Positions 14,613 through 22,350 of a DNA stretch of 64,000 bases are shown piece after piece (the stretch's first letter is position 1; each line of letters opens with the position of its first letter). Position numbers and translations under genes: made by a program. A model generated the notes under the pieces. It saw nothing but the letters and a program-made list of their open reading frames with translations, made no database searches and was not told the origin of the DNA. The DNA comes from a bacterium (GTDB lineage: Bacteria > Sysuimicrobiota > Sysuimicrobiia > Sysuimicrobiales > Segetimicrobiaceae). The stretch spans positions 64,418 through 128,417 of the forward strand of contig DATGFS010000003.1 of NCBI GenBank assembly GCA_035308905.1, given 5' to 3'.

Positions 14613-15662
14613 TCACGCGACGACGGTAATCGCGCCGCCTCCGGGCCCGGTGATCTCGCCGATCACGGCCGCCACGGGGAGCCCGCCCACGCGCAGCGCC
14701 CGGACCAGCGCGTCGCACCGCGCTTCCGGCACGGCGATGAGCAGGCCGCCGGAGGTCTGCGCGTCGGCCAGCAGAATTTGCGCGTCCTCGCCGACGCCGT
14801 CCCACGACACGACGCCCTGGAGAGATTCGCGGTTGCGCTGAGTCCCGCCCGGGATCGCGCGGGCCCGCACCAGCGGCCACGCGGCTGCGAGGATGGGCAC
14901 GTCGCGCAGCCGGACGCGCGCGGCAACTCCGGACCCTCGCGTCATCTCGGCGAGATGCCCCAGCAGGCCGAACCCCGTGATGTCGGTCGCGGCGGACACG
15001 CCGATGGCGATCATCGCTTCGGCGGCCGGCCGGTTGAGCGCGGCCATGATGCGAATCGCTTCGTCGACCGCGGCCTGCTCCGCCTTGCCCTGCTTGAGGG
15101 CCGTGGTCACGATGCCCATCCCGAGCGGCTTCGTCAGCACGAGGCGGTCCCCCGCCCGGGCCGCGGCGTTGGTGATGACGCGCTCGGGATGCACGAACCC
15201 GGTCACCGCTAACCCGTATTTGGGCTCGGGGTCGTCGATCGTGTGGCCGCCGATGATGGTCACGCCCGCCTCGGCGCACTTGTCCGCGCCGCCGCGCAGA
15301 ATCTCGCCGAGCACGTCGAGCGGGAGCTTCGCGCGGGGGAACCCCGCGAAGTTGAGGGCGAGCCGGGGCGTCCCGCCCATCGCGTACACGTCGCTCAGCG
15401 CGTTGGCCGCCGCGATCGCCCCAAACCAGTACGGATCGTCCACGATGGGCGTGAAGATATCGATCGTCTGGACCAGGGCCAGATCGGGCCCAAGACGGTA
15501 AACACCGGCGTCGTCGGCGGTGCTGGTACCCACCAGGACGTTCGGGTCGGTGATCGGTGGCAGGTGGCGCAGAACCTGCGCCAGGTCCGTCGGACTCAGC
15601 TTGGATGCTCAGCCCGCGCAGGCCACCATGCTGGTGAGCCGGATGCGGTCGCGGTCGTTCAT
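14613..15662 (-). CDS. selD: selenide, water dikinase SelD containing selenocysteine (in-frame TGA)
   Basis: SelD makes selenophosphate from selenide and ATP, the selenium donor for selenocysteine-tRNA and selenouridine. The frame from the ATG at 15662 reads RLTSMVACAG, then TGA at 15611-15609, then ASKLSPTDL; this aligns with the conserved AG(C/U)xxK(L/I)SP active site, with TGA exactly at the catalytic Cys/Sec position 18. Including the Sec, the protein has 349 residues, the usual length. ATP-binding segments (STADDAGVY, QTIDIFTPIVDDPYWFG) follow. A gene caller stopping at TGA would annotate only the part from 15533. A SECIS-like hairpin follows the TGA. A GGAGGGGG Shine-Dalgarno precedes the ATG. 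Confidence 0.93.
15580..15600 (-). promoter_or_regulatory. SECIS-like hairpin downstream of the selD UGA
   Basis: Eight bases after the selD UGA the message can fold a nine-position stem, GCUGAGUCC against GGACCUGGC, with one A-C mismatch and two G-U pairs, closed by the loop GAC. The loop begins 17 bases after the UGA and starts with G. Both features fit the bacterial SECIS consensus, which needs a hairpin within about 16-37 bases and a G in the first loop positions, to be bound by SelB. Folding was done by eye. Confidence 0.65.
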
Positions 15663-15700
15663 GCCCCCTCCGGGCGCGGCGCGTGGCTCGTGCCGCGTCA

Positions 15701-15720
15701 ATTGTAGCATCTGTTATAGT
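15701..15720. promoter_or_regulatory. back-to-back selD/LysR promoter region
   Basis: The 74-base gap between selD and the LysR gene is AT-richer than its surroundings. On the plus strand TGTTATAGT (15712-15720) is an extended -10 element for the LysR gene. On the minus strand TACAAT (15706-15701) is a good -10 for selD. The short inverted repeat GTTATAGTAAC spans the plus-strand element. LysR regulators usually bind such divergent gaps, so this is a likely operator. No clear -35 element was seen for either. Confidence 0.45.
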
Positions 15721-15736
15721 AACGTCTGAGGCTCCC

Positions 15737-16645
15737 ATGGCGGTCAACGTTCACCTGCTGAAAATCTTTCACGCGGTCGCGCGGTCGGGCAGCTTCTCGC
15801 GCGCGGCGTCGGAACTAGCGATCAGCCAGCCGTCGGTCAGCATCCAGGTGGGGGAGCTGGAGCGGCAGTTCGGGGTGGAGCTGTTCGAGCCGGCCGGCAA
15901 GTCCGTCCGGCTCACCGAGGCCGGGCGGATCTGCTTCGACTACGCGGGGAGGATCCTCGCGCTCATGGAAGAGGCCCAGCGTGCGATGGACGAAGTCAAA
16001 GGCCTCGGGCGCGGCCGCCTCCTCGTCGGCGCGACACAGACGCCGGGAACGTACATCCTGCCGGCGATGCTCGGCCGCCTGAAGGCCAAATACCCGCGGC
16101 TCGAGATCGCCCTGCGTATCGACGATCCCCGCAGAATCCAGGAAATGGTGCTGCGCCAGGAACTCGACCTCGCGGTAACGGGATGGCGCGTCAGCCTCCC
16201 GGATCTCGAGGCCGTCCCGATGGCCGACGACGAGATGGTCCTCGTCGTCGCGCCGTCGCACCCGTTCGCGGACCTGCCGGAAGTGGCGCTTACCGACCTC
16301 GCGCGCGAGCCGTTCATCATGCGGGAACGGGGATCTGGCGCCCGGGAATTGCTCGACGACGCGCTGCACCGCGCCGGGGTTTACATCACGCCGACGCTGG
16401 AACTCGAGGGCGTCGACGCGGTGAAGCAGGCGGTCGCCGCGAACCTCGGCGTCTCGATGCTGTCGCGCTGCGCGATCGACCTCGAGGTCTCGACCGGCCG
16501 GCTGCGCGTCGTGCCGGTGCGGGATTTCAAGGTCGAGCGGACGATCTGGCTCGTGCGCCACCGCGACCGGCAGCTCCCGCGCGCCGCGCAGGCGTTTATC
16601 GCCCTCGCCACCGTCTCGCCGGGTGTGGAGCCGGTGCAGACGTAG
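15737..16645 (+). CDS. LysR-family transcriptional regulator, probably selenium-linked
   Basis: A 302-residue LysR regulator: N-terminal winged helix-turn-helix (LLKIFHAVARSGSFSRAASE, then ISQPSVSIQVGELERQFG) and a C-terminal periplasmic-binding-like effector domain from about residue 90. The ATG at 15737 is used because the family begins there; an upstream GTG at 15683 would add 18 unrelated residues and run through the promoter. It is divergent from selD with overlapping promoters, a placement seen for LysR regulators tied to selenium metabolism. The effector is unknown. Confidence 0.85.
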   Translation: MAVNVHLLKIFHAVARSGSFSRAASELAISQPSVSIQVGELERQFGVELFEPAGKSVRLTEAGRICFDYAGRILALMEEAQRAMDEVKGLGRGRLLVGATQTPGTYILPAMLGRLKAKYPRLEIALRIDDPRRIQEMVLRQELDLAVTGWRVSLPDLEAVPMADDEMVLVVAPSHPFADLPEVALTDLAREPFIMRERGSGARELLDDALHRAGVYITPTLELEGVDAVKQAVAANLGVSMLSRCAIDLEVSTGRLRVVPVRDFKVERTIWLVRHRDRQLPRAAQAFIALATVSPGVEPVQT

Positions 16646-16731: not shown

Positions 16732-16760
16732 TTGACCCATTGAACGGCAGTTGCTAAGAT
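16732..16760 (+). promoter_or_regulatory. sigma-70-type promoter of the serine T-box operon
   Basis: TTGACC at 16732-16737 and TAAGAT at 16755-16760 are separated by exactly 17 bases, a near-consensus housekeeping promoter. Transcription would begin about 16767, just upstream of the T-box leader. Confidence 0.75.
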
Positions 16761-16769
16761 GCAGAAAAC

Positions 16770-17037
16770 TCAATACGGGCGATGACAGAGAGCGCGGACC
16801 GCGCGACTGCCCCGAGAGAGCCGGCGATACGGTGGAAGCCGGCGCAGCCGCGGACCCGAGTCCACTCCTGAGCCCTCGGCCGATGCGGTCCGGCGATGCC
16901 GGATCGAAGGCCGGCGGGTCCGCCCGTTATCGCTGTCGAGCGCCGGACGCCCGCCCGATCGAACGGCGGGACGGCCGGCAAAGGAGTGGCACCGCGAGCG
17001 CTCTCGCCTCCTACGGCGGGAGCGCTGTCGTTTGTCA
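16770..17037 (+). promoter_or_regulatory. T-box riboswitch leader, serine specifier UCC
   Basis: The 310-base leader between the promoter and the aminotransferase gene has T-box landmarks in order. The distal stem I blocks are AGAGAGCCGG and GGTGGAAGCCGG (16816-16842). The specifier side is GAGTCCACTCCTGAGC, with codon TCC (Ser) at 16861-16863. The T-box sequence TGGCACCGCG is at 16987-16996. The base after TGG is C, which pairs with the G73 discriminator found in serine tRNAs. A terminator overlaps the antiterminator. Uncharged tRNA-Ser would favour the antiterminator and switch on the serine-synthesis and seryl-tRNA synthetase genes downstream. Confidence 0.9.
16997..17037 (+). terminator. 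T-box-controlled intrinsic terminator
   Basis: Arms at 16997-17008 and 17015-17026 pair over 12 positions with a single G-U pair and a six-base loop, followed by the T-rich GTCGTTTGTC. The left arm begins directly after the T-box sequence ACCGCG, so terminator and antiterminator are mutually exclusive, as T-box control requires. Confidence 0.8.
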
Positions 17038-17079
17038 TCGACGCACCGAACAGCACATAACACAACCAGGAGGTCTGCG

Positions 17080-18252
17080 ATGCGCGATCTGCCGGACGCG
17101 AACCTGTTGATCCCGGGACCGACCCCGCTCCCGCCCGAGGTTCTGGAGGCCATGAACCGGCAGATGACCAACCACCGCGGGCCCGTATTCGGCGAGATCA
17201 TGCGCGAGGTGCTCGACGGGCTGCACGAGGTGTTTCAGACGCGGAACGACATTCTGACCTTCGTCGCCTCCGGCACCGGCGGCCTCGAAGCCTCGGTGGT
17301 GAACGTCTTCTCGCCGGGCGACCGCGTGCTGTCGGTCACCAACGGCTCGTTCTGCGAGCGGTGGGCCGAGATGGCGGAACTGTACGGCGCCCGGGTGGAC
17401 CGGATCTCCGCGCCGTGGGGCCGGCGCGTCCCGGTCGCGGAAGTCGCCGCGCGCCTCGAGGCCGACACGGGCGGCGAGTACCGCGCCGTGCTCGTGACGC
17501 AGAGCGAGACGAGCACGGGCGTCCACAACGACGTGCGGGCGATCCGGGAGGCGATGGGCCGGCACCCCGCGCTCCTCATGGTCGATGCGATCAGCGCGCT
17601 CGGGGCGATCCCGCTCGAGACCGACGCCTGGGGCGTCGACGTCGTCGTGACCGCCTCGCAGAAGGCGCTGATGAGCCCGCCGGGGCTCGCGTTTCTCAGC
17701 GTGAGCGACCGCGCGTGGGCCGCCGCGCAGCGGAGCACGACCCCACGCTTCTACCTCGACTTCGTCCGGGCGCGGAACGCGGCGCGCTTCGCCAATCCGT
17801 CCACGCCGTTCACGACCGCCGTCTCGGTGGCGTACGCGGTCCAGGCGGCCGTGCGGCTGATCCGCAAGGAAGGCCTCCAAAACGTGTTCGCGCGGCACCG
17901 CCGCATGGCGCAGCTCGTGCGCGCCGGCGTCCGCGGCATGGGCCTCGAGCCGTTCGTAGACGACGCCTCGGCGGTCGACACCGTGACGACCGTGCGGATG
18001 CCGCAGGGCGTCGACAGCCAGAAGGTGGTCGCGCACGCCCGCGACCGCTATCAGGTGCTCATCGGAAACGGCATCGGCAAGCTCGAGCACGACATCGTCC
18101 GCATCGGCCATCTCGGCTACACCAGGCCGGAGTGGCTGCTTGGCGGGCTCGAGGCGCTCGGGAAGACGCTCGGCGACCTCGGGCGCCCGGTCCGCACCGA
18201 GAGCGGCGTGCGCGCCGCAAACGGCGCGCTCAAGGCAGGCACCCTGGGCTAG
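17080..18252 (+). CDS. class V aminotransferase, serine-forming (serine-pyruvate/phosphoserine type)
   Basis: A 390-residue PLP enzyme of the alanine-glyoxylate/serine-pyruvate aminotransferase family. Visible are LLIPGPTPLP at the N-terminus, the cofactor aspartate in LMVDAISALGAIPL and the Schiff-base lysine in VVTASQKALMSPPGLAF. The ATG at 17080 has AGGAGGT 6 bases upstream. It stands first behind the serine T-box and 2 bases before serA, so it most likely supplies the transamination step of serine synthesis in place of a classical SerC; glycine/glyoxylate use cannot be excluded. Confidence 0.85.
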   Translation: MRDLPDANLLIPGPTPLPPEVLEAMNRQMTNHRGPVFGEIMREVLDGLHEVFQTRNDILTFVASGTGGLEASVVNVFSPGDRVLSVTNGSFCERWAEMAELYGARVDRISAPWGRRVPVAEVAARLEADTGGEYRAVLVTQSETSTGVHNDVRAIREAMGRHPALLMVDAISALGAIPLETDAWGVDVVVTASQKALMSPPGLAFLSVSDRAWAAAQRSTTPRFYLDFVRARNAARFANPSTPFTTAVSVAYAVQAAVRLIRKEGLQNVFARHRRMAQLVRAGVRGMGLEPFVDDASAVDTVTTVRMPQGVDSQKVVAHARDRYQVLIGNGIGKLEHDIVRIGHLGYTRPEWLLGGLEALGKTLGDLGRPVRTESGVRAANGALKAGTLG

Positions 18253-18254
18253 CC

Positions 18255-19874
18255 ATGCGCGTGCTCGTCGCCGACGGTCTCGCGGACGAGGGCCTCCGCC
18301 GCCTCTCCGCCGCCGGCGAAGTCGTGGTGCGCGCGGGCGTGCCGGACGACGAGCTGCGTTCGCTCCTCAGCGGGTTCGACGCGGTGATCGTACGGAGCCG
18401 CACCCGCGTGCCGGCCGGCAGCCTTGACGACGCCGGCCACCTCCGCGTGATCGCACGCGCCGGCGTCGGCGTGGACAATATCGACGTCGAGGCGGCGACC
18501 CGCCGCGGCATTCTCGTCCTGAACACCCCGGAGAGCAGCACGATCGCGGCGGCCGAGCACACCTTCGCGATGATGCTCGCGCTCGCGCGCCACGTCCCGA
18601 GCGCCGCCCAGGCGGTCGCCCGCGGCGAGTGGGCGCGGGAGCGGTTCCTCGGCACGGAGCTCACCGGCAAGACCCTCGGCGTGGTCGGCCTCGGCAAGAT
18701 CGGCAGCGAAGTCGCCCGGCGCGCCCTCGCCTTCGGCATGCGCGTGGTGGCGTCGGACCCCTACGTGTCCGAGGAACGCGCGCGGCGCCTCGGGGTCGAG
18801 CTCGCCCCGTGGCCCGACATCCTGGATCTGGCCGACGTCGTCACGCTGCACGTGCCGCTGGGACGCGATACGCGGGCGCTCGTCGGCCCGGATGAGCTGG
18901 CGCGGATGAAGCCCGGCGCGTTCCTCATCAACTGCGCCCGCGGCGGGCTCGTCCACGAACCGGCGCTCCTCGCCGCGCTGGAGCGAGGCCAGCTCGGCGG
19001 CGCGGCCCTCGACGTGTTCGCGAAGGAGCCGCCCGGCGACAATCCCCTGCTGCGGCACCCGCGCGTCGTCGCCACCCCGCACCTCGGCGGCTCCACGGTC
19101 GAGGCCCAGCGCTCGATCGCCATCGAGGTCGCCGACCAGGTGCTCGCCGCGCTCCGCGGCGAGCCCGTCCGCGGCGCCGTGAACGCGCCCGCGCTCGGCG
19201 AGGACGTCTGGCAGCGGCTCGACCCGTTCCTGCACCTCGCCCGCTCCCTCGGCGGGCTCGCCGGCCAGCTCGCCGACGGCCAGATCCGCGCCGTGGCCCT
19301 CGTCTACGAGGGCGAGGTGGCCCGGCTCGACACGCAGCCCCTTACGGCGTCGGTGCTGGTCGGCCTGCTGCGCCACGCCTCCGACCAGCCGGTCAACCTC
19401 GTCAACGCGGTGCTGCTGGCCAAGGAGCGCGGGCTGCGCGTGAGCGAGTCCCACGCCGACCTGTGCGAAGATTTCGCGAGCCAGCTCGTCGCCGAGATCG
19501 AGACGTCGCGCGGGACGCTCCGGCTCGGTGGCACGCTGTGGGGCCACCGCGCGCCGCGCATCACCCGCCTCAACGCCTGGCGGCTCGACCTCGCGCCGGC
19601 GCCGCACATGCTGTTCGTGTGGAACGCGGACCGGCCCGGGATGATCGGCCACGTCGGCACGATCCTCGGCCGGCGCGGCGTCAACATCGCGAACATGCAC
19701 GTCGGGCGGCTTGAATTACCTGATGGCCGGCCGCTTGTCGGCCGGCACGACGCCGGCGGGACCGCGGTGATGGTCCTGACGCTCGACGCCGCGCCGCCGG
19801 TCGACGTGACGCGCGAGATCGCGCAGGCCGACGGCATCACCGCGGTGCGGGCGACTCAGCTGCCCTCGGCGTAG
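18255..19874 (+). CDS. serA: D-3-phosphoglycerate dehydrogenase
   Basis: A long-form SerA of 539 residues that oxidises 3-phosphoglycerate with NAD, the first step of serine synthesis. The NAD-binding motif is LGVVGLGKIGSEVARRA. The catalytic Arg, Glu and His lie in INCARGGLVHEPAL, KEPPGDNPL and ATPHLGGSTVEA. An intervening domain and a C-terminal ACT domain follow (MLFVWNADRPGMIGHVGTIL to the end), so serine feedback is likely. The ACT domain has about ten extra residues (near ELPDGRPLVGRH) encoded by an inverted repeat. Second gene of the T-box operon. Confidence 0.93.
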   Translation: MRVLVADGLADEGLRRLSAAGEVVVRAGVPDDELRSLLSGFDAVIVRSRTRVPAGSLDDAGHLRVIARAGVGVDNIDVEAATRRGILVLNTPESSTIAAAEHTFAMMLALARHVPSAAQAVARGEWARERFLGTELTGKTLGVVGLGKIGSEVARRALAFGMRVVASDPYVSEERARRLGVELAPWPDILDLADVVTLHVPLGRDTRALVGPDELARMKPGAFLINCARGGLVHEPALLAALERGQLGGAALDVFAKEPPGDNPLLRHPRVVATPHLGGSTVEAQRSIAIEVADQVLAALRGEPVRGAVNAPALGEDVWQRLDPFLHLARSLGGLAGQLADGQIRAVALVYEGEVARLDTQPLTASVLVGLLRHASDQPVNLVNAVLLAKERGLRVSESHADLCEDFASQLVAEIETSRGTLRLGGTLWGHRAPRITRLNAWRLDLAPAPHMLFVWNADRPGMIGHVGTILGRRGVNIANMHVGRLELPDGRPLVGRHDAGGTAVMVLTLDAAPPVDVTREIAQADGITAVRATQLPSA

Positions 19875-19905: not shown

Positions 19906-21195
19906 GTGCTGGACCTGCGCCTGATTCGCGAGCAGCCGGACCAGATCAAGGCCGCGATCCGGCGCAAAGGCGCCGACCCGGGCCTCGTCGACGCGGTGCT
20001 CGAAGCCGACCGCCGGCGGCGCGACGCGCTGCAGCGTGTCGAATCGCTGCGCGCGGAGCAGAATCGCGCCTCCACGGAGATTCCGCGGCTCACCGGCTCC
20101 GCCCGGGAGGCGCGCATCGCGGAGATGAAGCGGATCGCCACTGAGCTTCGCGGGACCGAGCCGGATCTCGCCGCGGCCGACGCGGCGCTCGAGGCCGCCC
20201 TGCGGCGCATTCCCAATCCCCCGCACCCGGAAGTCCCGGACGGCGGGCCCGAGGCGAGCGTCACCCTCCGCACGTACGGCGAGCCGCCGCACCCCCCGTT
20301 CGAAATGCTCGACCACGTCGAGTTGGGGACGCGGCTCGACATGCTCGACATCGAGCGGGCGGCCAAGATCTCCGGGTCCCGCTTCGTGCTGCTGCGCCGC
20401 GACGGCGCGCTCTTGGAGATGGCGCTCTTCCGCTACGCCGTCGACCGCCTCACGGCCGACGGCTTCATTCCCGTCATCCCGCCCGTGCTGGTGAAGCGGG
20501 AGGCCGTGCTCGGCACCATGGGCGGCGGCGGCCTCGACGAGCAGATGGTCTACCGGATCGACGGCGAGGACCTCGCGCTCGTCGGCACCTCGGAAGTGGC
20601 GCTCGGCTCGATGCTGGGCGGCGAAGTCCTCGACGAGGACGCGCTGCCGATGCGGTTCGTCGGCATCTCGTCCTGTTTTCGGCGGGAGGCCGGCGCGCAC
20701 GGCAAAGACACGCGCGGCATCTTCCGCCTGCACCAGTTCGACAAGGTCGAAATGTTCTCGTTCTGCCACCCCGACCGCTCCTGGGACGAGCACGCGTACC
20801 TGCTCGGCCGGCAGGAAGCGCTCTGGCAGGGCCTCGGCCTGCCGTACCGCGTGGTCGACATCGCCGCCGGGGACCTCGGCGATCCCGCCGCGCGCAAGTA
20901 TGACATCGAGACCTGGATGCCGGGCCGCGGCGGCTACGCCGAGACGCAGTCATGCAGCAACTGCACCGACTTCCAGGCGCGGCGCCTCAACGTGCGTTTC
21001 CGGTTGCGCGGCCGGCGCGGTCTCGAGTACGTGCACACCTTGAACGGCACCGCGGTCGCGGCCACCCGCACGATCATCGCCGTCATGGAGAACTTCCAGC
21101 AGGCCGGCGGCAGCATCCGGATCCCGGCGGTGCTGCAGCCCTACATGGGAGGCCGTACAGAGATCGTGCCGCCCGCGGCGCCGGCGCGGCACTAG
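19906..21195 (+). CDS. serS: seryl-tRNA synthetase
   Basis: A 429-residue class II synthetase that charges tRNA-Ser. The N-terminal helical coiled-coil arm (about residues 30-105) binds the long variable arm of tRNA-Ser. Motif 2 is SSCFRREAGAHGKDTRGIFR, the serine-site region is FDKVEMF, and motif 3 is NGTAVAATRTIIAVMENFQ. The GTG at 19906 is preceded by AAGGAG at good distance. It is third in the operon, matching the serine specificity read in the T-box. Confidence 0.96.
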   Translation: MLDLRLIREQPDQIKAAIRRKGADPGLVDAVLEADRRRRDALQRVESLRAEQNRASTEIPRLTGSAREARIAEMKRIATELRGTEPDLAAADAALEAALRRIPNPPHPEVPDGGPEASVTLRTYGEPPHPPFEMLDHVELGTRLDMLDIERAAKISGSRFVLLRRDGALLEMALFRYAVDRLTADGFIPVIPPVLVKREAVLGTMGGGGLDEQMVYRIDGEDLALVGTSEVALGSMLGGEVLDEDALPMRFVGISSCFRREAGAHGKDTRGIFRLHQFDKVEMFSFCHPDRSWDEHAYLLGRQEALWQGLGLPYRVVDIAAGDLGDPAARKYDIETWMPGRGGYAETQSCSNCTDFQARRLNVRFRLRGRRGLEYVHTLNGTAVAATRTIIAVMENFQQAGGSIRIPAVLQPYMGGRTEIVPPAAPARH

Positions 21196-21216: not shown

Positions 21217-22350
21217 ATGCGGCGCTACGATGTCATCGTGATCGGCGTCGGCGGGATGGGCAGCGCCGCCGTCTACCATCTGGCCCGGCGGGGGAAGGCC
21301 GTCCTCGGACTGGAGCAGTTCGACATCCCCCACGATCGCGGCTCGTCCCACGGCACCAACCGCATCATCCGCCTCGCCTACTGGGAGCACCCGTCATACG
21401 TGCCGCTCCTGCGGCGCGCGTATGAGCTGTGGCGCGAATTGGAGCACCGCGCCGAAGAGCGCCTCCTCATCATTACGGGCGGCATCGACGCGGGCCCGGA
21501 AGGCTGCCCCACCGTGGCCGGCTCGCTCCTCTCATGCGATATTCATCACCTGCCGCATGAGACGCTCAGCGCCGCCGAATTGCACCGCCGTTTCCCGGGG
21601 TACCGCCTCGCGGGCGACATGGTCGCGGTGTACCAGCCGGACGGCGGCTTCCTGCTGTCGGAGCGCGCGATTGTCGCGCACGTGACCGCGGCGCAGGCGC
21701 TCGGCGCCGAGGTGCGCGCCCGCGAGCCGGTGCTCGATTGGGAGCCCGAGCGCGGCGGCGTGCGTGTGCGCACGGAGCAGGGAACGTACGCCGCCGAGCG
21801 GCTGGTCATCACCGCCGGGCCGTGGGCGGCACGGCTCGTGCCGGCGCTGGCCCGGGCGGCGGTGCCGGAGCGGCAGGTGCTGCTGTGGGCGCAGCCGCTC
21901 AAGCCCGAGCACTTCCGGCTCGCCACGTTCCCGGTGTTCAACATGGAGAGCCCGGAGGGCCGGTTCTACGGATTCCCGATCTATGGGGTCCCGGGCTTCA
22001 AGATCGGGAAGTACCACCACCGGCTGGAGCGCACCGACGCCGACGCGGTCGACCGGGAGATCCACCCGGAGGACGAGGCGGTGCTGCGGGAGGGCATCCG
22101 CCGCTACTTCCCGGACGCCGACGGCCCGACGATGGCGATGAAGACGTGCCTCTTCACGAACAGCCCTGACGAGCACTTCATCCTCGACCGGCACCCCGAC
22201 CACACGAACGTCGCCATCGCCGCCGGGTTCTCCGGCCACGGCTACAAGTTCTGCAGCGTGGTCGGCGAGATCATGGCCGACCTGGCGCTCGAGGGACGGA
22301 GCCGGTTCGACCTCAGCTTGTTCGGAATCGGGCGGCTTGCGAAGAGCTAA
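21217..22350 (+). CDS. monomeric sarcosine oxidase/N-methyltryptophan oxidase-like flavoenzyme
   Basis: A 377-residue FAD amine oxidase. The dinucleotide fold is VIVIGVGGMGSAAVYHLARR. The C-terminal MKTCLFTNSPDEHFILDRHP contains the cysteine that carries covalent FAD in monomeric sarcosine oxidase, and GFSGHGYKF follows as in that family. It would oxidise an N-methyl amino acid such as sarcosine to glycine or its parent amino acid plus formaldehyde. It starts 21 bases after serS and may be read through from the T-box operon, which would link sarcosine, glycine and serine. Confidence 0.85.
   Translation: MRRYDVIVIGVGGMGSAAVYHLARRGKAVLGLEQFDIPHDRGSSHGTNRIIRLAYWEHPSYVPLLRRAYELWRELEHRAEERLLIITGGIDAGPEGCPTVAGSLLSCDIHHLPHETLSAAELHRRFPGYRLAGDMVAVYQPDGGFLLSERAIVAHVTAAQALGAEVRAREPVLDWEPERGGVRVRTEQGTYAAERLVITAGPWAARLVPALARAAVPERQVLLWAQPLKPEHFRLATFPVFNMESPEGRFYGFPIYGVPGFKIGKYHHRLERTDADAVDREIHPEDEAVLREGIRRYFPDADGPTMAMKTCLFTNSPDEHFILDRHPDHTNVAIAAGFSGHGYKFCSVVGEIMADLALEGRSRFDLSLFGIGRLAKS

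Follow-up and report, generated by a model that had tools for sequence, protein, structure and literature searches.

The leader in front of a serine operon in the analysed stretch of DNA (64,000 nucleotides, hereafter the window) is very probably, by homology, a T-box riboswitch of class I (transcriptional) with specificity for tRNA-Ser(GGA). The support in hand consists of the T-box landmarks, a match to the structure model, a matching tRNA, two mutually exclusive helices, the operon downstream and conservation among relatives. An earlier note on this DNA had proposed a serine T-box at this place, and the observation was confirmed at the level of the sequence.

Match of the leader to the T-box model

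As suggested in the earlier note, the leader was searched with the covariance model of the Rfam T-box family. A full-length match to RF00230 (model positions 1–219) was obtained at 16773–17014 on the forward strand, with a score of 40.2 bits and E=1.4e-7 in a 481-base region at a relaxed threshold. The same match had E=2.8e-7 in a genome-wide search. The score falls below the RF00230 gathering score of 93 bits, which is a curation threshold and not a biological feature, and a default Rfam scan of the whole 64-kb window is therefore blind to the leader (zero matches). The low score accompanies a very GC-rich sequence (0.73 GC) and a large composition correction (bias of 25.4 bits). An orthologous leader at the equivalent operon position (L246 in genome G015) reached 101.9 bits, above the gathering score.

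Folding of stem I had also been suggested as a check on the specifier loop. The thermodynamic minimum-energy fold of the isolated stem I or of the GC-rich leader did not yield the canonical T-box stem I, so that the covariance model and conservation carry the assignment.

Architecture and conservation of the leader

The leader is preceded by a promoter-like site (16732–16760, forward strand as for all elements below), composed of TTGACC, a spacer of 17 nt and TAAGAT with a TG before the second hexamer (one found versus 0.0 expected in shuffles). The start given in the earlier note, 16732, is the first base of this site, and several orthologous leaders are preceded by similar TTGAC...TATCAT sites.

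Stem I (16777–16875) is closed by the basal helix GGGC/GCCC and contains the kink-turn GAUGA (16781–16785) opposite UGAG (16869–16872). The specifier loop is bounded by the helix 16787–16790/16865–16868 and by a helix closing at 16796/16856. Its 3' strand carries the specifier UCC (Ser; 16861–16863) in the +0 frame, followed by A16864. An A-C pair adjoins the loop here where most relatives have G-C, which counts against the assignment. The distal module (16815–16834) consists of the AGAGAG bulge (16815–16820) and the terminal-loop GGUG (16831–16834). Stem I therefore presents the kink-turn, specifier loop and distal AG-bulge/terminal-loop module that characterize class I T-boxes. Two hairpins of the T-box model lie between stem I and the linker (16876–16926), followed by stem III (16943–16978).

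The T-box sequence GGAGUGGCACCGCG (16983–16996) includes UGGC at 16987–16990, complementary to the 3' end GCCA of tRNA-Ser. It belongs to the predicted antiterminator (16983–17011; −8.4 kcal/mol), formed by the helices 16983–16986/17008–17011 and 16994–16998/17003–17007. The 12-bp terminator that had been described after the T-box was found at 16997–17026 (−27.5 kcal/mol, z of −3.9 versus shuffles), where it overlaps the antiterminator and is followed by a weak U tract, GUCGUUUGUC. Since positions 17003–17008 are common to both, antiterminator and intrinsic terminator are mutually exclusive, as in class I T-boxes. A Shine-Dalgarno sequence, AGGAGG, is located at 17068–17073. All the landmarks, i.e. 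the kink-turn, specifier loop, AGAGAG bulge, GGUG loop, T-box and terminator, are thus present in the leader.

Nine orthologues from two families, in which the leader precedes the orthologous gene, were aligned at 69% mean column identity. On this alignment 78.7% of cells pair under the T-box structure versus 38–51% with the partners slid, and 15 both-side pair changes were counted versus 8.4 in shuffles. Pairing amounts to 94–96% of cells in the antiterminator helices, 92.6% in the terminator and 83.9% in stem III, where four of seven pairs show both-side changes. The weakest parts are the longer hairpin (16876–16914) and the helix above the specifier loop, with about 51% of cells paired each; their register is uncertain across relatives because of this weak pairing. 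The AGAGAG bulge is invariant in all nine aligned sequences. The comparison was extended to 20 intact orthologues across four of the phylum's families (eight from f1, six from f4, one from f5 and five from f6): each of them contains AG[A/C]GAG...GGTG, UCC and UGGC. Their terminators differ in sequence and several have long U tracts. The five loci of family f2, and also G020, lack the leader before the aminotransferase gene.

At three loci of relatives, L136 (G002, same genus), L142 (G008) and L144 (G010, like G008 from genus g2), the terminator has been retained but the leader is largely missing. G008 and G010 have a common deletion junction; that of G002 differs and is independent. If these are not assembly errors, the three operons would have attenuation but no sensor.

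Serine specificity and the matching tRNA

According to the TBDB rule, the second to fourth base from the end of the specifier loop take priority (PMC7778990), which makes UCC the specifier and leaves CCA (Pro) and GUC (Val) as the shifted frames. UCC is complementary to the anticodon of a tRNA-Ser(GGA) of the same genome (G000:C3:152409), detected by pattern search and confirmed by ARAGORN. This tRNA was missed by the tRNA-model scan of the genome and also by similarity to tRNA-Ser(UGA), which returned tRNA-Ser(CGA) and 3' fragments. All four tRNA-Ser of the genome (GCU, UGA, CGA and GGA) end in GCCA; tRNA-Pro and tRNA-Val end in ACCA. UGGC is fully complementary to the former end and not to the latter, and the C at the variable position of UGGN pairs with the discriminator base G73, in agreement with the earlier note. 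Serine specificity is supported on the sequence side by three independent tests, namely the frame of the specifier, the G73 of the genome's own tRNA-Ser, and the presence of UCC and UGGC in all 20 intact orthologues.

Fragments of the 3' end of tRNA-Ser(UGA) were also observed at L206 (G006), L218 (G005) and L213 (G004), those of G005 and G006 lying a few kb from the tRNA. They resemble what an integrating element might leave behind at its attachment site.

The serine operon and its aminotransferase

The first gene downstream of the leader (17080–18252, +) codes for a class V aminotransferase of the serine/alanine-glyoxylate type, here proposed as a stand-in for phosphoserine aminotransferase. 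It is followed on the same strand by serA, encoding a D-3-phosphoglycerate dehydrogenase with an ACT domain (18261–19874), and by serS, encoding seryl-tRNA synthetase (19906–21195). The serA and serS calls are NCBIfam equivalogs above cut-off (TIGR01327, 611 bits with a cut-off of 454; TIGR00414, 445 bits with a cut-off of 301.65), and both genes are linked to the amino acid of the specifier, as for class I T-boxes. No terminator or promoter-like site was found between the three genes, which are separated by gaps of 8 and 31 bases. A gene resembling N-methyl-L-tryptophan oxidase or monomeric sarcosine oxidase (21217–22350, +) starts 21 bases after serS with no terminator found in between, and it adjoins serS also at L136 of G002; it is possibly the last gene of the operon. 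Most of the family members examined have the genes in the order aminotransferase-serA-serS. G002 has no serA between the aminotransferase gene and serS, and the contig piece of G010 ends inside serA. Within the short flanks available for other families, aminotransferase-serA or aminotransferase-serS neighbourhoods were seen.

The operon had been described as combining serine synthesis and seryl-tRNA synthetase. This holds for serA and serS, but the first gene differs from a standard serC. Its product fails the SerC equivalogs (35.9 of 401.65 bits for serC_3, 18.1 of 443.6 for serC_1). The best model is BhcA, at 365.9 of 650 bits, and the closest PDB entry is a serine--glyoxylate aminotransferase (6pk1). 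The SerC model had no match in this genome, and none over cut-off across the family. Weaker fragments aside, the remaining larger class V proteins encoded in the genome are SufS, NifS/IscS, a kynureninase/SufS-like, a BhcA-like and a PhnW-like protein. No match over cut-off was obtained for SerB, an enzyme often replaced by other phosphatases. In Methanocaldococcus the phosphoserine step is done by a class V aminotransferase (MJ0959), which gives a precedent for such an enzyme in place of SerC. These data hint that the aminotransferase may replace the missing SerC. Alternatively, it could feed serine through glyoxylate-to-glycine transamination.

Upstream of the leader, the selD gene for selenide, water dikinase (14613–15710, −) carries UGA, in frame, in place of the codon for the catalytic cysteine (ACAGUASK), and SelD is itself probably a selenoprotein, as judged from this codon. 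The adjoining LysR gene (15683–16645) has its best match with a selenium-associated LysR model, just under the cut-off (240 of 250 bits).

Alternative readings of the leader

A T-box that acts on translation by sequestering the ribosome-binding site would suit the weak U tract after this terminator, and class II T-boxes of Actinomycetota do act in this manner. We regard it as unlikely here, given the strong stem-loop that overlaps the antiterminator in all nine aligned orthologues, the long U tracts in several of them, and the position of the Shine-Dalgarno sequence, which lies outside the terminator stem and about 40 bases past it. Even less probable is a decaying relic without regulatory function, comparable to the leaders that have lost their sensor in G002, G008 and G010. 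The low model score and the loss of the sensor in three family members would fit such decay, but every landmark and both exclusive helices are intact here, and where pairs vary they are compensated among orthologues that have diverged to 69% mean column identity.

Another amino acid could be read only if the specifier frame were shifted to CCA or GUC, which the overlapping triplets in the specifier loop would permit. This is hardly credible, since UGGU would be required for the tRNAs for Pro and Val in this genome, with their A73, whereas UGGC fits the G73 of tRNA-Ser, and the downstream genes are serine genes. Furthermore, the bases flanking UCC vary among the orthologues, so that UCC alone is invariant. 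The transcriptional T-box specific for serine is the reading retained below.

Proposed mechanism and comparison with known systems

Transcription would start just before the leader. In the nascent RNA, the specifier UCC of stem I is expected to read the anticodon GGA, and the distal AG-bulge/terminal-loop module to dock the tRNA elbow. With uncharged tRNA, the free GCCA end would pair with UGGC of the T-box and stabilise the antiterminator, allowing the polymerase to read through into aminotransferase-serA-serS. With serine-charged tRNA, the more stable 12-bp terminator would form and transcription would stop. We infer tRNA binding, transcription start, termination and readthrough from these features. 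Readthrough on uncharged tRNA-Ser would raise serine supply and serine charging together; the single RNA switch that the earlier note had envisaged is in this way supported by sequence, operon and conservation, as a prediction.

Mechanism and targets are already known from Bacillota. In Paenibacillus polymyxa WLY78, a serine T-box with a transcription terminator likewise precedes serA, and its response to serine starvation was shown by mutation (PMC8002221). The specifier is AGC and the T-box UGGU in that strain, as opposed to UCC and UGGC here, and serA stands alone, with serC elsewhere and serS outside the operon, in contrast to the aminotransferase-serA-serS arrangement. At least 29 of 34 Firmicutes have conserved T-box control of serS (PMC2494555); the serS gene described here is likewise under a T-box, but in third position behind the aminotransferase gene and serA, and in another phylum by the GTDB-based grouping. 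Another known T-box has the same specifier and serine synthesis genes, with a canonical SerC instead of the class V aminotransferase. With respect to RF00230 and the class I T-boxes of TBDB (PMC7778990), the leader agrees in its full-length match, specifier position and discriminator rule, and differs by its score below the gathering score and its GC content.

T-boxes in the genome and in the phylum

Seven further T-boxes were found in the 4.0-Mb draft genome (G000), on contigs C30, C13, C79, C50 (two), C56 and C22 (loci L001, L002 and L004–L008), none of them over the gathering score. Their specifiers and first genes were read by eye from the sequence and not from model scans: GUC before a valS-like gene, AUC before ileS, CCC before proC, AUG before metG, CUC before an acetolactate synthase gene, and UGG before a DAHP-synthase/prephenate-dehydrogenase pair. 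The last one, a UGGA T-box that is probably Thr(ACC), is cut by a contig end. The seven precede genes for the supply or charging of Val, Thr (probable), Trp, Pro, Ile, Leu and Met, with mostly matching codons, which supports the T-box reading, and UGGC is confined to the serine T-box among the T-boxes of this genome.

In the GTDB-based collection, the phylum of this genome comprises 43 genomes in one order and seven families. T-box matches were found in all 43, over the gathering score in 15. The phylum probably corresponds to Sysuimicrobiota/CSP1-3, described as a single-class, single-order phylum abundant in soils in a publication where T-boxes are unmentioned (PMC11604079) and listed by NCBI as a phylum within Bacillati. 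The earlier placement of the T-box outside Bacillota holds under the GTDB-based grouping, with its small single-order phylum, but NCBI calls two MAGs of the same family Bacillota. Spo0A, looked for as a Bacillota marker, is absent from the genome; this does not decide the phylum, as many Bacillota also are without Spo0A. T-boxes outside Bacillota and Actinomycetota have already been reported from Chloroflexi, Deinococcus and two Proteobacteria (PMC2494555). No report on T-boxes of the present phylum was found in a literature search that left subscription papers mostly uncovered and is thus weak evidence of absence.

What is new here is the phylum, the blind spot created by the threshold, and the hint of an aminotransferase for the missing SerC. 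The balance tips slightly towards a joint proposal: that T-boxes serve an entire uncultured phylum (probably Sysuimicrobiota/CSP1-3) as a permanent system of amino-acid control, which the Rfam gathering score conceals in most of the genomes, and that the class V aminotransferase is singled out by the serine T-box as the phosphoserine aminotransferase of this phylum, replacing SerC. A serine-controlled aminotransferase in a genome without a recognised SerC makes a testable enzyme assignment, and the sensor-less leaders of the three relatives may serve as natural deletion mutants for comparison. Default Rfam scans overlook T-boxes in GC-rich genomes, with none over the cut-off in this one. With this finding, a regulatory system of Gram-positive bacteria would reach into a small phylum that has no cultured members.
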